DNA from: a virus
Length of the DNA stretch: 24,601 nt
Direction: 5' to 3' (one strand)
IMG/VR virus record: IMGVR_UViG_3300027906_000146
Span: 1 to 24,601 of that record
Part shown: positions 18,542-21,506 of the stretch, in pieces
How the letters are laid out: the number at the start of each line of letters is the position of its first letter
How positions within the stretch are numbered: the stretch's first letter is position 1
The notes under the pieces: generated by a model
Database searches by the model: none
The model's input: the letters and a program-made list of their open reading frames with translations, nothing else
What the model was told of the DNA's origin: nothing
Position numbers and translations under genes: made by a program

Positions 18542-19246
18542 ATGGCCGTAGCAGATTTCGCAGCACAAATTAAACAAGGGACTAAAGAGTCTCACTCAGC
18601 AGCAGAGAACACTAAGTTCGTTGCTGGATTTCTTCGTGGTGTCTTAGATCCAGAAGAGTATCGTAAACTCATCGCCAACTTCTACTTTGTTTATAGAGCA
18701 ATGGAGGAGGAGATAGTTAAGTTGAAAGACCATCCTGTAGTTGGTCAGATAAATGACCCTAAGTTATACAGGACAAAAGCATTAGAGGAAGATCTCGAAT
18801 ACTATTATGGGTCAGAGTGGAAAACTACAGTACAACCATCAGAAGCAGGTCAACAGTATGTCAACAGAATCCGTGAAGTCGCAAAAGATGATCCCAAACT
18901 ATTGGTTGGTCATCATTACACCAGATATTTGGGTGACCTCTCTGGTGGTCAGATACTTCGAGGTATTGCTGAAAACTCTCTTAAACCGCCAAAAGGCCAA
19001 GGTTTGAGTTTTTACGATTTCTCAGAAATCTCAGATTCTAAAAAGTTCAAAATTTCATACCGTCAGCTTTTAGACACGCTTGACATGAATCAACAGGACG
19101 TAGATATATGCATACGCGAAGCAAACTATGCTTTCAAGTTGAATATGTATATGTTTGATGAACTACAAGGTAGTGCATCAAAATCTTTTGTCAAACTGTT
19201 ATGTAATTTTGTCAAATCAAAATTAGGTATCAAAAATGAAACTTAG
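18542..19246 (+). CDS. ho1: Heme oxygenase (cyanobacterial/cyanophage type)
   Basis: 234 aa, the normal length for cyanobacterial HO1. The enzyme opens heme to biliverdin IX-alpha with release of CO and Fe2+, using electrons from ferredoxin in cyanobacteria; biliverdin is the precursor of phycobilin pigments. Family marks are present: the proximal heme ligand His18 in K-E-S-H-S-A-A, and the distal-helix motif G-D-L-S-G-G-Q at 131-137 preceded by H-H-Y-T-R-Y-L. It is a soluble, all-helical protein. Marine cyanomyoviruses are known to carry ho1 as an auxiliary metabolic gene, often with bilin reductases (pebS, pcyA). No bilin reductase is in this window. The start follows the preceding stop by 2 nt, and the end overlaps the next small gene by 11 nt. 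All key residues appear intact, so an active enzyme is expected. Confidence 0.95.
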   Translation: MAVADFAAQIKQGTKESHSAAENTKFVAGFLRGVLDPEEYRKLIANFYFVYRAMEEEIVKLKDHPVVGQINDPKLYRTKALEEDLEYYYGSEWKTTVQPSEAGQQYVNRIREVAKDDPKLLVGHHYTRYLGDLSGGQILRGIAENSLKPPKGQGLSFYDFSEISDSKKFKISYRQLLDTLDMNQQDVDICIREANYAFKLNMYMFDELQGSASKSFVKLLCNFVKSKLGIKNET

Positions 19247-19361
19247 ACCTAAAGATTCTGATTCTAAATGTAAAGAATCAAAAGAAGATTTGGACACTAA
19301 ATGTAAAGAATCAAAAGAAGATTCAACCGATAGATATGATGAAATACCAGCAAGATATTGA
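19236..19361 (+). CDS. 41-aa charged protein with an internal duplication
   Basis: ATG 19236 to TGA 19359-19361. The frame overlaps the end of ho1 by 11 nt and the start of the oxygenase-like gene by 1 nt (TGATG), the arrangement used by real genes in this block. The product is strongly hydrophilic and consists largely of two copies of C-K-E-S-K-E-D in an 11-residue period, giving two cysteines 11 residues apart. The period is exactly 33 nt, so the duplication keeps the frame. No homology is recognised. It could be a genuine tiny protein or simply a translational bridge between ho1 and the next gene. Confidence 0.5.
   Translation: MKLRPKDSDSKCKESKEDLDTKCKESKEDSTDRYDEIPARY
19264..19323 (+). 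repeat. Perfect 27-bp direct repeat, 33-bp period
   Basis: The same 27 bases occur at 19264-19290 and 19297-19323, separated by 6 nt that differ from the bases upstream. The copies are identical, unlike the diverged modules of the fiber gene, which points to a recent slippage or duplication event. The period is a multiple of three and lies inside the 41-aa frame. Confidence 0.9.
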
Positions 19362-20068
19362 TGAATTTTTATCAATTAAAGAGTCCTAATCCTAAGACTC
19401 CTTATGCACCTTTTGTTGATGTAAGTTTAGGTCATAAAGTATTACAAATTGATTGTAATATTATTACTAAGTTACTATTAGACAAAGAACCTGAATTGTT
19501 ACAATTACCAGTATCTACAGATGCAAATGGTAACTTTACAGATGGAGGTACTGGAACTGGTCGTGATAGTATCACTGCACGATTTCAGAACTTTAATATA
19601 TTGTCTTGGAAATATGAACTTCAGATCAGAAACTTACAATATCAGATAAAAGATGCTATTGAGGAGTACAATGGACACTTTGGCCACCGCACACCAGATA
19701 AATTGTATATCAACTGTTGGTACAATGTATTAAGGAAAGGAGGACAAATAAGACCACACTTACATTCTTGTCACGAATATAGTTATCTCAGTGGTCATGT
19801 AACAGTACAATCAGATGATACTTGTACTGGATATATCAACCCAGTTAATATCAAAGAGTTCTTTCTTTCTATTGTGAAACCAACAGGATTGAAAGAATTA
19901 GTTGAGTCTGGTAATACATATGAGATAGATAATAATGTAGGAGAATTAACAATATTTCCTACTAGATTAGCACACTACACATCAGTGCATGAATCAGATA
20001 TTCCTAGAATAACTATAGCATTTGATGTTAATTATCAACCCATTACTGATACCAGTATATTATTATGA
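19361..20068 (+). CDS. 2-oxoglutarate/Fe(II)-dependent oxygenase-like protein
   Basis: 235 aa from ATG 19361; an in-frame TTG one codon earlier is less likely because ATG 19361 forms a TGATG junction with the preceding gene. The C-terminal half follows the pattern of the phage/cyanobacterial 2OG-Fe(II) oxygenase family (2OG-FeII_Oxy_5 type). W120 and the R-K-G-G turn are followed by H133-L-H135, then Y-L-S-G at 142-145, then L-T-I-F-P-T-R-L-A-H205 and finally P-R216-I-T-I-A-F. H133 or H135 with H205 would supply metal ligands, and R216 would bind the 2-oxoglutarate carboxylate. The substrate is unknown; a small molecule, nucleic acid or protein is possible. Residues 1-110 are not recognised. 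The stop overlaps the pyrE-like start by 4 nt (ATGA). Confidence 0.72.
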   Translation: MNFYQLKSPNPKTPYAPFVDVSLGHKVLQIDCNIITKLLLDKEPELLQLPVSTDANGNFTDGGTGTGRDSITARFQNFNILSWKYELQIRNLQYQIKDAIEEYNGHFGHRTPDKLYINCWYNVLRKGGQIRPHLHSCHEYSYLSGHVTVQSDDTCTGYINPVNIKEFFLSIVKPTGLKELVESGNTYEIDNNVGELTIFPTRLAHYTSVHESDIPRITIAFDVNYQPITDTSILL

Positions 20069-20631
20069 GACAAGTAACTCACGATATAATGAGGCAAGAA
20101 CTCTTGATCCTCTTAAAGAAATATGCTTACAAGAAAGGTAGTTTTACTCTATCTTCAGGTAAACATAGTGAACATTATGTTAATTGTAAACCAGTAACAT
20201 TAAATGGTGAAGGTATAAATGTTGTCAGTAATATGTTATTGGAATGTATTGAACCTGATGTTAAGGCAGTAGCAGGTTTAACAATGGGTGCTGATCCACT
20301 TGTTACTGGTGTAGCAATGACCGCATACTTAAGTGTTAGTTCCCCTGATTTAGAGGCATTAATAGTTAGGAAGAAACCTAAAGGTTATGGTACAAACAAG
20401 TGGGTTGAAGGTAATCTACCACCTAAAGGTAGTAAGATTACAGTATTAGAAGATGTTGTAACAACTGCTAATTCTTCTATACAAGCAGTAGTAAGATTAC
20501 GAGAACTAGGTTATGTAGTTGATCGTATAATTACTATTGTTGATAGACAAGATGGCAGAGAAGCATATAATAATTGCGAATCTGCTAATGTAGATCTCAT
20601 TAGTCTCTACCAATTAAACGAATTATTCTAG
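20065..20631 (+). CDS. pyrE: Orotate phosphoribosyltransferase-like protein
   Basis: 188 aa, slightly shorter than typical bacterial PyrE. The family reaction joins orotate and PRPP to give OMP in UMP synthesis, which would feed nucleotides to phage replication. Visible marks are F-T-L-S-S-G-K-H-S near 27-35 (orotate-site pattern F-x-L-x-S-G), the flexible catalytic loop R-K-K-P-K-G-Y-G-T at 102-110, and the PRPP motif V-L-E-D-V-V-T-T-A-N-S at 127-137. In most relatives the last part reads T-T-G-x-S; here the glycine is Ala135 and Asn136 follows. This may alter PRPP binding or substrate choice. The loop resembles cyanobacterial enzymes. A second in-frame ATG at 20089 is possible, but the ATGA overlap favours 20065. 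Confidence 0.85.
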   Translation: MRQVTHDIMRQELLILLKKYAYKKGSFTLSSGKHSEHYVNCKPVTLNGEGINVVSNMLLECIEPDVKAVAGLTMGADPLVTGVAMTAYLSVSSPDLEALIVRKKPKGYGTNKWVEGNLPPKGSKITVLEDVVTTANSSIQAVVRLRELGYVVDRIITIVDRQDGREAYNNCESANVDLISLYQLNELF

Positions 20632-20873: not shown

Positions 20874-21155
20874 ATGTATGAACCTGAAGTCGGTGACTAT
20901 GTTATCTGGGATCGTGGGGAATATGGCAAAGATGAAGGTTGGGTATATTTTAAAGGAGATGAGAAATCGTATGATCTCAAAGGAAAGGAACATCCCCGAT
21001 ACATTACTATAGAAACTGGTGTTAAACCAAAACCTAAGTGTCGTTACACTAGGAATGAACAGCATAAAATGATTCATACATTATTACTATGTTATGAATC
21101 ATCTTGGCATCAATTGAAGTATATCAAGAACAGACGTAATGAAGACAAGGGATAG
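20874..21155 (+). CDS. Small cyanophage-type protein of unknown function
   Basis: 93 aa from ATG 20874, just after the preceding stop. The same frame extends upstream to 20817 but would then overlap the coiled-coil gene by 56 nt, so the later ATG is preferred. The N-terminal part (G-D-Y-V-I-W-D-R-G-E-Y-G-K-D-E-G-W-V) looks like a compact beta fold. The C-terminal part (H-K-M-I-H-T-L-L-L-C-Y ... W-H-Q-L-K-Y-I) is a basic helix. From memory this resembles a hypothetical protein found in many cyanomyoviruses, but I could not check that. The stop codon overlaps the first hairpin of the structured stretch that follows. Confidence 0.75.
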   Translation: MYEPEVGDYVIWDRGEYGKDEGWVYFKGDEKSYDLKGKEHPRYITIETGVKPKPKCRYTRNEQHKMIHTLLLCYESSWHQLKYIKNRRNEDKG

Positions 21156-21345
21156 ACAGTGAACAAACTGTCACAAGGCCACGAGCATTGGGTCTGAAAT
21201 GATGTATTATATAAATGTTGAGGCATTCGTAAGACTTTCAAGGTTGCGTTCAGTCGCATTTAAGTCGAACTTAAGCAAACATAAGTCCTCAACTGCTGCT
21301 AGTCCCTTTGGTGGTTTCAGACTAGGAGGCGATAGGAAACCACCA
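21155..21345 (+). ncRNA. Candidate structured leader RNA with mutually exclusive stems
   Basis: The 210-nt gap before the 46-aa gene holds several exact complementary segments. GACAGT/ACTGTC is at 21155-21160 and 21167-21172. TGCG/CGCA is at 21245-21248 and 21255-21258. TTAAGT/ACTTAA is at 21260-21265 and 21269-21274 with a CGA triloop. The last two are enclosed by GTTGAG/CTCAAC (21217-21222 with 21288-21293) and GACTT/AAGTC (21233-21237 with 21283-21287). A 10-bp hairpin, TGGTGGTTTC/GAAACCACCA (21309-21318 with 21336-21345), has AGGAGG at its tip. Its 5' arm can instead pair with GTCTGAAA at 21192-21199 via TTTCAGAC at 21315-21322. No known RNA family is recognised and no U-tract follows. 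A 56-aa frame overlaps most of it. Confidence 0.35.
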
Positions 21346-21369
21346 TTATTCTTTACATCAGGTCAATGA
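21199..21369 (+). CDS. Doubtful 56-aa frame over the structured stretch
   Basis: ATG 21199 (or 21202) to TGA 21367-21369, overlapping the next start by 4 nt in the ATGA arrangement seen elsewhere here, which argues for a real gene. Against it, there is no Shine-Dalgarno upstream. The codons (TCG, AGC, AGG, GGC, CTA) differ from the neighbours, and the product is a basic, Ser/Arg-rich sequence without recognisable fold elements. The same bases hold strong inverted repeats. I rate a coding role and an RNA role as about equally open. Confidence 0.35.
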   Translation: MMYYINVEAFVRLSRLRSVAFKSNLSKHKSSTAASPFGGFRLGGDRKPPLFFTSGQ

Positions 21370-21506
21370 ACACAGTTATCCTAACTGATTTCGAGAAAGA
21401 GGTGATTCAAGACTTTATTCTTGATAATCTTAAGCATTCAGTGAAAACAGGGAAGAGAGATACTGTGGTTAAAGTTTACAACAAAATCTTTTCTTCATCA
21501 AACTAA
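21366..21506 (+). CDS. 46-aa protein of unknown function downstream of the structured stretch
   Basis: ATG 21366, stop TAA 21504-21506. The product is a compact amphipathic helical sequence (D-F-E-K-E-V-I-Q-D-F-I-L-D-N-L) followed by a basic segment and a second short helix, plausible for a tiny folded protein. It begins 20 nt after the closing arm of a 10-bp hairpin. No good ribosome site is free near the start (GGTC only), so expression may depend on the upstream RNA or on coupling with the doubtful 56-aa frame. Its stop overlaps the next start by 1 nt (TAATG). No family is recognised. Confidence 0.6.
   Translation: MNTVILTDFEKEVIQDFILDNLKHSVKTGKRDTVVKVYNKIFSSSN

Follow-up and report, generated by a model that had tools for sequence, protein, structure and literature searches.

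What does the gap at 21156–21365 of this viral DNA encode? The window, as we term the whole 24,601-nt stretch, is a fragment of a T4-like cyanophage, and the gap lies between a 93-aa ORF (20874–21155, PHROG 522) on its 5′ side and a 46-aa ORF on its 3′ side. Genes typical of the auxiliary set of cyanophages are also present in the window, namely a heme oxygenase (18542–19246), a phosphoribosyltransferase (20065–20631, PHROG 32468) and a 2OG-Fe(II) oxygenase (19358–20068). The initial annotation read the gap as a switching leader, in which a 10-bp hairpin (21309–21318 with 21336–21345), presenting AGGAGG near its tip, competes with an 8-bp long-range pairing (21192–21199 with 21315–21322). All of the complementary stretches that it listed are indeed present where it placed them. 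Folded alone, the gap segment gave a z score of –1.36, with 19 of 200 shuffles equally good; because folding is not clearly better than that of shuffles, this single sequence is no proof of structure.

Relatives of the segment provide an answer. Judged by sequence comparison, the gap contains a real and undescribed structured RNA, shared by hundreds of viruses that infect marine cyanobacteria. Most likely, a viral transcript opens with this element, ~70 to 200 bases long and just ahead of a tRNA or a short gene, which would guard or control that transcript.

Pseudoknot, 5′ stem and exchangeable domains

BLAST searches against phage records matched 21228–21277 to intergenic regions of cultured cyanophages and 21292–21345 to a marine virus. 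Pattern scans of IMG/VR for the two corresponding parts, termed module A and module B, yielded 62 stretches for the former and, in separate scans, 50, 119 and 120 stretches for the latter. The short pattern GGAGGCGATAGGAAA, used in the second of these scans, also picked up chance matches, which were sorted out using the rest of the motif. The search patterns themselves account for part of the conservation seen in the module B loops, and the covariation counts given below take sequences regardless of relatedness. A covariance model found two pattern-free copies of module B, one in P-SSM2 and the other in L211, a contig of 152 kb. Their stem sequences are new and the loop differs (GCGGCUAUAG); both pseudoknot stems, the 5′ stem and the 6-nt spacing between –10 box and stem are nevertheless retained. 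Across 84,980 species genomes of bacteria and archaea, the module B pattern had 0 matches, and module B thus appears to be exclusive to phages.

Module B is, on the evidence of covariation, an H-type pseudoknot, with two interleaved stems (S1 and S2) that both covary. Among 48 distinct sequences, 99.6% of the S1 and S2 cells are paired and 8 of the 15 pairs are changed on both sides; none of 500 shuffles paired as well, and slid controls reached 26–51%. For S1, which had been overlooked in the initial annotation, 1001 of 1002 cells are paired in 167 distinct sequences, compared to 764 after shuffling. With the version from cultured phages included, this helix runs on beyond a conserved G.G through U21297–A21327 and C21296–G21328, the pair beyond the G.G being U-A in 110 sequences and G-C in 57, with no exception. 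The annotated 10-bp hairpin is real in so far as nine of its pairs constitute S2 and covary among relatives; it does not stand by itself, however, but supplies one half of a pseudoknot that every relative keeps.

Coordinates of features within and next to the element (positions in the window)
Feature	Position	Strand	Remark
Predicted –10 box TATTAT	21205–21210	+	From sequence and the spacing rule of the family
5′-terminal stem, 5′ arm GUUGAGG	21217–21223	+	Pairs with 21287–21293
Module A core UAAGACUUUCAAGGU-[UGCG..CGCA]-UUUAAGUCGAACUUAAGCA	21230–21277	+	Exchangeable domain inside the 5′ stem
Module A hairpin	21245–21258	+	UGCG 21245–21248 with CGCA 21255–21258; covariation
5′-terminal stem, 3′ arm CCUCAAC	21287–21293	+	Ends on the base with which module B begins
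Module B, H-type pseudoknot	21293–21344	+	Covariation in relatives
Pseudoknot S1, 5′ arm CUAGUC	21299–21304	+	Pairs with 21320–21325 (GACUAG)
Pseudoknot S2, 5′ arm GGUGGUUUC	21310–21318	+	Pairs with 21336–21344 (GAAACCACC); hairpin of the initial annotation
Loop L3 GAGGCGAUAG	21326–21335	+	Highly conserved, partly fixed by search patterns; GCGGCUAUAG in two pattern-free copies
46-aa ORF	21366–21506	+	21 nt 3′ of the pseudoknot; unmatched in PHROG and Pfam

The 5′ stem precedes module B, and its arms vary among relatives with pairing kept, so that the annotated basal stem GUUGAGG/CCUCAAC is also confirmed by covariation. Comparison of copies indicates that the loop of this stem is either of the GNRA type or taken up by a bigger, exchangeable domain, which in the window is module A. 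In short copies, the stem is closed by GAGA or GAAA; others hold different, larger domains, of which at least six kinds were seen. Module A fills the stem in the window and in L016.

Within module A, the annotated TGCG/CGCA hairpin is real. All four of its pairs covary, with the variants AGCG/CGCU, GAGC/GCUC, GACC/GGUC, AACG/CGUU and UGUG/CACA. Across the module, 100% of cells are paired and two-sided changes occur in 5 of 8 pairs; a closing pair has both of its bases replaced, A-U for G-C, in 6 of 22 sequences. Less well borne out is the annotated 5-bp stem GACUU/AAGUC, with 88% of cells paired, no two-sided changes and 13 broken cells. An alternative, CUU/AAG plus a G-C/A-U pair, forms in 100% of the sequences and shows covariation. 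A by-eye reading of module A as tmRNA-like or as a group I intron gained no tool support, and ARAGORN found no tRNA or tmRNA in the window.

Cultured phages with module A include P-SSM4, P-RSM3, P-SSM3, P-HM2, MED4-213 and MbCM1. Genes for a DNA methylase and a helicase flank the module in P-SSM4, P-RSM3 and P-SSM3; in P-SSM4, P-HM2 and MbCM1 it is freestanding. Freestanding copies have 18 different basal stems, with a mean of 9.4 Watson–Crick pairs versus 5.9 with mismatched flanks. A sibling form of module A, AGG-CAAGGGU-[hairpin]-UUUAAnUCGAA-CCU, serves as the 5′ domain in four loci (L092, L106, L111 and L113). Another conserved domain, GGGGGTTCAGGTGTAAGCGATTCCCATAGGGTAAATTTGGGC...GGTGAAACC, occupies the 5′ stem upstream of module B in L110, L072, L083 and L102; it is freestanding in P-SSM2 (L196, 1201–1279), with TTGAGAG/CTCTCAA as its closing stem and T6 after it. 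No fewer than three other, unrelated domains occur in the 5′ stem of other phages, in L104 and L090 (GACTTAGAAGC...CCGTTGGGGTAATTCAC), in L076 and L084 (CCCCCCGATGGTACAATGGGGCTGAGTATAAGC) and in L206.

These comparisons leave little room for the proposed switch. The complementarity behind the 8-bp long-range pairing is present in the window, but its upstream partner is found in 1 of 225 relatives, and the transcript is predicted to start only downstream of that partner (see below). The competing pairing is unique to the window, and the hairpin it would dissolve belongs to a conserved pseudoknot. We therefore consider a two-state switch very improbable indeed. AGGAGG is not conserved either: about one-third of copies read GCGG, and the base that changes covaries with its partner (T-A in 110 sequences, G-C in 57). 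As a member of a covarying pair, AGGAGG was rejected as a Shine–Dalgarno (SD) sequence. A ribosome-trapping decoy, also suggested initially, is unlikely given this lack of conservation and given that about half of the relatives precede tRNA genes rather than ORFs. The overlapping 56-aa frame contains stops in L016, a close relative, and was discarded as a gene or conserved object.

Predicted transcript start and downstream genes

A –10 box matching at 5 or more of 6 positions lies before most module B copies (122, compared to 24 in the control). To locate the start without bias, it was defined solely by the best –10 box. A full 5-bp stem, formed with the bases at the head of module B, begins 6 nt after the box in 81 of 124 copies (other offsets, 0–4). 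This spacing places the predicted transcript start on the stem's first base. The window follows the same rule, with six bases between TATTAT and G21217, which we accordingly predict to be the transcription start; no good –35 element was seen in the window. Terminators are enriched upstream, occurring within 300 nt of 37 of 159 module B copies versus 3 of 168 random stretches, which argues that module B opens transcription units. Some copies have no promoter. In these, the 5′ stem is retained inside the 3′ end of the upstream coding sequence, as expected of an insulator.

Immediately downstream of module B is a tRNA gene in 115 of 225 copies (90 Arg, 18 Pro, 5 Thr). The tRNA starts 7–13 nt past the end of the pattern, i.e. 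a few bases past the pseudoknot. An ORF follows in 68 of the 225 copies as counted by script, or in ∼55 once spurious frames inside tRNA genes are removed. The ATG of these ORFs is mostly 15–38 nt from the pattern end (9–31 nt from the pseudoknot), and the linkers are short and AU-rich. In P-SSM2, where module B is at 144051–144103, purM lies 19 nt downstream; elsewhere, translations read by eye include PstS-, halogenase- and PurM-like proteins as well as small ORFs. That these partners are unrelated argues for a general function in the transcript and not for sensing on behalf of one pathway. Complete genomes carry one module B (P-SSM2, S-SKS1, S-B43, RB11-B, SynMITS9220M01, ACG-2014f, S-SCSM2R) or one module A (P-HM2, MED4-213, P-SSM4, MbCM1). 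Two module B copies are present on one contig (L281, 8708–8760 and 10693–10743, minus strand), followed by a tRNA in one case and by an ORF in the other.

Possible functions of the element

Our preferred reading, held tentatively, is that 21217–21344 acts as a 5′-terminal, cis-acting leader that would shield its transcript from 5′-dependent decay. Comparison shows an RNA that, by promoter position, opens on the first nucleotide of a stem, has the conserved H-type pseudoknot directly after that stem, and runs into a tRNA a few bases on or, past a short AU-rich linker, into an ORF; the element would act in cis on whatever lies downstream. With its 5′ end buried in a helix and backed by a compact pseudoknot, such an RNA would bar RNase E from entering and would likewise stop the cyanobacterial 5′–3′ exonuclease RNase J, thereby insulating whichever tRNA or mRNA follows. 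Module A and its alternatives could add binding of a protein or ligand.

Shielding is favoured because 5′ structures are known to protect bacterial RNA from RNase E/RppH and 5′ roadblocks to stop RNase J (PMC3997798), and because cyanobacteria possess both RNase E and RNase J (PMC10989914). Against it stands the absence of a close RppH homologue from cyanobacteria (PMC10989914). The stabilising 5′ stem-loops and roadblocks of bacterial mRNAs resemble the present element in that the 5′ end is buried in a stem, but they are ordinary hairpins or bound ribosomes or proteins and lack its conserved pseudoknot and exchangeable domains. Protection would call for no more than a 5′ hairpin, yet the pseudoknot loops are near-invariant and the inserted domains elaborate, suggesting a more specific partner. 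For a generic stabiliser, moreover, the usual single copy per genome is odd. Precursors of tRNAs are cut by RNase P anyway, which likewise counts against shielding.

A broader version, possible if doubtful, is that the element represents a modular, phage-exclusive 5′ transcript cap. Here a universal pseudoknot chassis would shield or drive transcripts of tRNAs and auxiliary genes, and the 5′ stem would accept different aptamer-like plug-in domains that adapt it to the host. T4-like cyanophages are among the most abundant viruses of the ocean, and the RNA precedes their tRNA arrays and, in P-SSM2, the well-known host-derived purM. If the idea is right, a phage-only leader with swappable domains at more than 200 loci would partly explain how these phages keep transcripts alive or read through.

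Reading through is the essence of the main rival to shielding, which we regard as somewhat unlikely: an antiterminator like the put RNAs of phage HK022, where the nascent leader would bind host RNA polymerase and render it processive through untranslated tRNA arrays and operons. The put RNAs are ∼70 nt long, and putL lies just downstream of its own promoter (PMC9378689). They are cis-acting phage RNAs near the transcript start with no fixed downstream gene, and the element is similar in length and promoter position: minimal copies (GUUGA-GNRA-UCAAC plus the pseudoknot, ∼66 nt) lie at the predicted +1 of transcripts into tRNA clusters. The shapes differ, however. Put RNA consists of two stem-loops with a triplex, arranged in a V that contacts the β′ zinc-binding domain, and no pseudoknot has been reported for it; here, a pseudoknot replaces the second stem-loop. 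The host is another one, there is no known sequence relation, and some copies are not promoter-proximal. Terminators occur 3′ of module B at roughly the rate seen elsewhere (0.20 vs 0.12 per kb), a comparison that is uninformative as a test. A leader responsive to a ligand or protein, with module A or the pseudoknot as the sensor of a riboswitch-like device, is unlikely. The long invariant loops of both modules, the unlinked genomic contexts and the exchangeable upstream domains would fit such a device, and there is precedent in the manA and wcaG RNAs of cyanophages, called riboswitch candidates (PMC2864571). But loop invariance is due in part to the search patterns, the genes that follow belong to no common pathway, many of them encoding tRNAs, and no conserved competing structure or terminator offers an expression platform.

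Translation might be the target instead, with the pseudoknot just upstream of the ribosome footprint recruiting ribosomes to ORFs that lack an SD. The tight 15–38 nt spacing and AU-rich linkers of the ORF copies are in keeping with such an enhancer, as is the paucity of SD motifs (7/65 versus 81/384 for other ORFs). This deficit is small, though, and GGAGG is not conserved. Translation plays no part where tRNAs follow, which rules it out as a universal role and makes the enhancer improbable. Quite improbable, too, is a gene for a trans-acting small RNA that sits at the head of operons by chance. One copy per complete genome, an own promoter and conserved loops would suit it, whereas the missing terminator directly after the element and the constant, tight spacing to the next gene would not.

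Relation to known RNA families

Neither module matched any of the 4227 families of Rfam 15 at gathering or permissive thresholds. A DicF match (12.4 bits against a threshold of 48, E 4.5) is a chance hit, and elsewhere in the loci only tRNA, manA and wcaG were matched. Full-text searches of open papers in PubMed Central returned no description of module A or B. The initial suggestion of a structured, regulatory-type phage RNA outside known families is thus upheld. Conserved loops within H-type pseudoknots are also found in the leaders of the preQ1, SAM-II and glutamine-II riboswitch classes; module B differs in having no Rfam match and no single downstream pathway.

The closest counterparts in kind are manA (RF01745) and wcaG (RF01761), structured RNAs of T4-like cyanophages found in 5′ leaders of diverse genes, with function unassigned. 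Their covariance models match beside module B but not modules A or B, and their loops and topology are different. The element belongs with these orphan cyanophage RNAs as a separate family of unusual modular build. In S-SKS1, wcaG lies ∼600 nt from module B. A manA RNA sits within the tRNA array, directly after the tRNA-Arg that follows module B (L193, 1330–1540; L190, 1332–1542), in S-B43 and ACG-2014f, where the order is module B, tRNA-Arg, manA RNA and further tRNAs. Just 3′ of module B in six loci (L135, L140, L146, L122, L143 and L174) is a repeated pseudo-ORF, MDVPLGSQPKKELTS / MDVPRGSPPLKELTS, that begins AGGAGATGGATGTGCC and has the look of a further conserved RNA hairpin (GGATGT..ACATCC), not of a protein.
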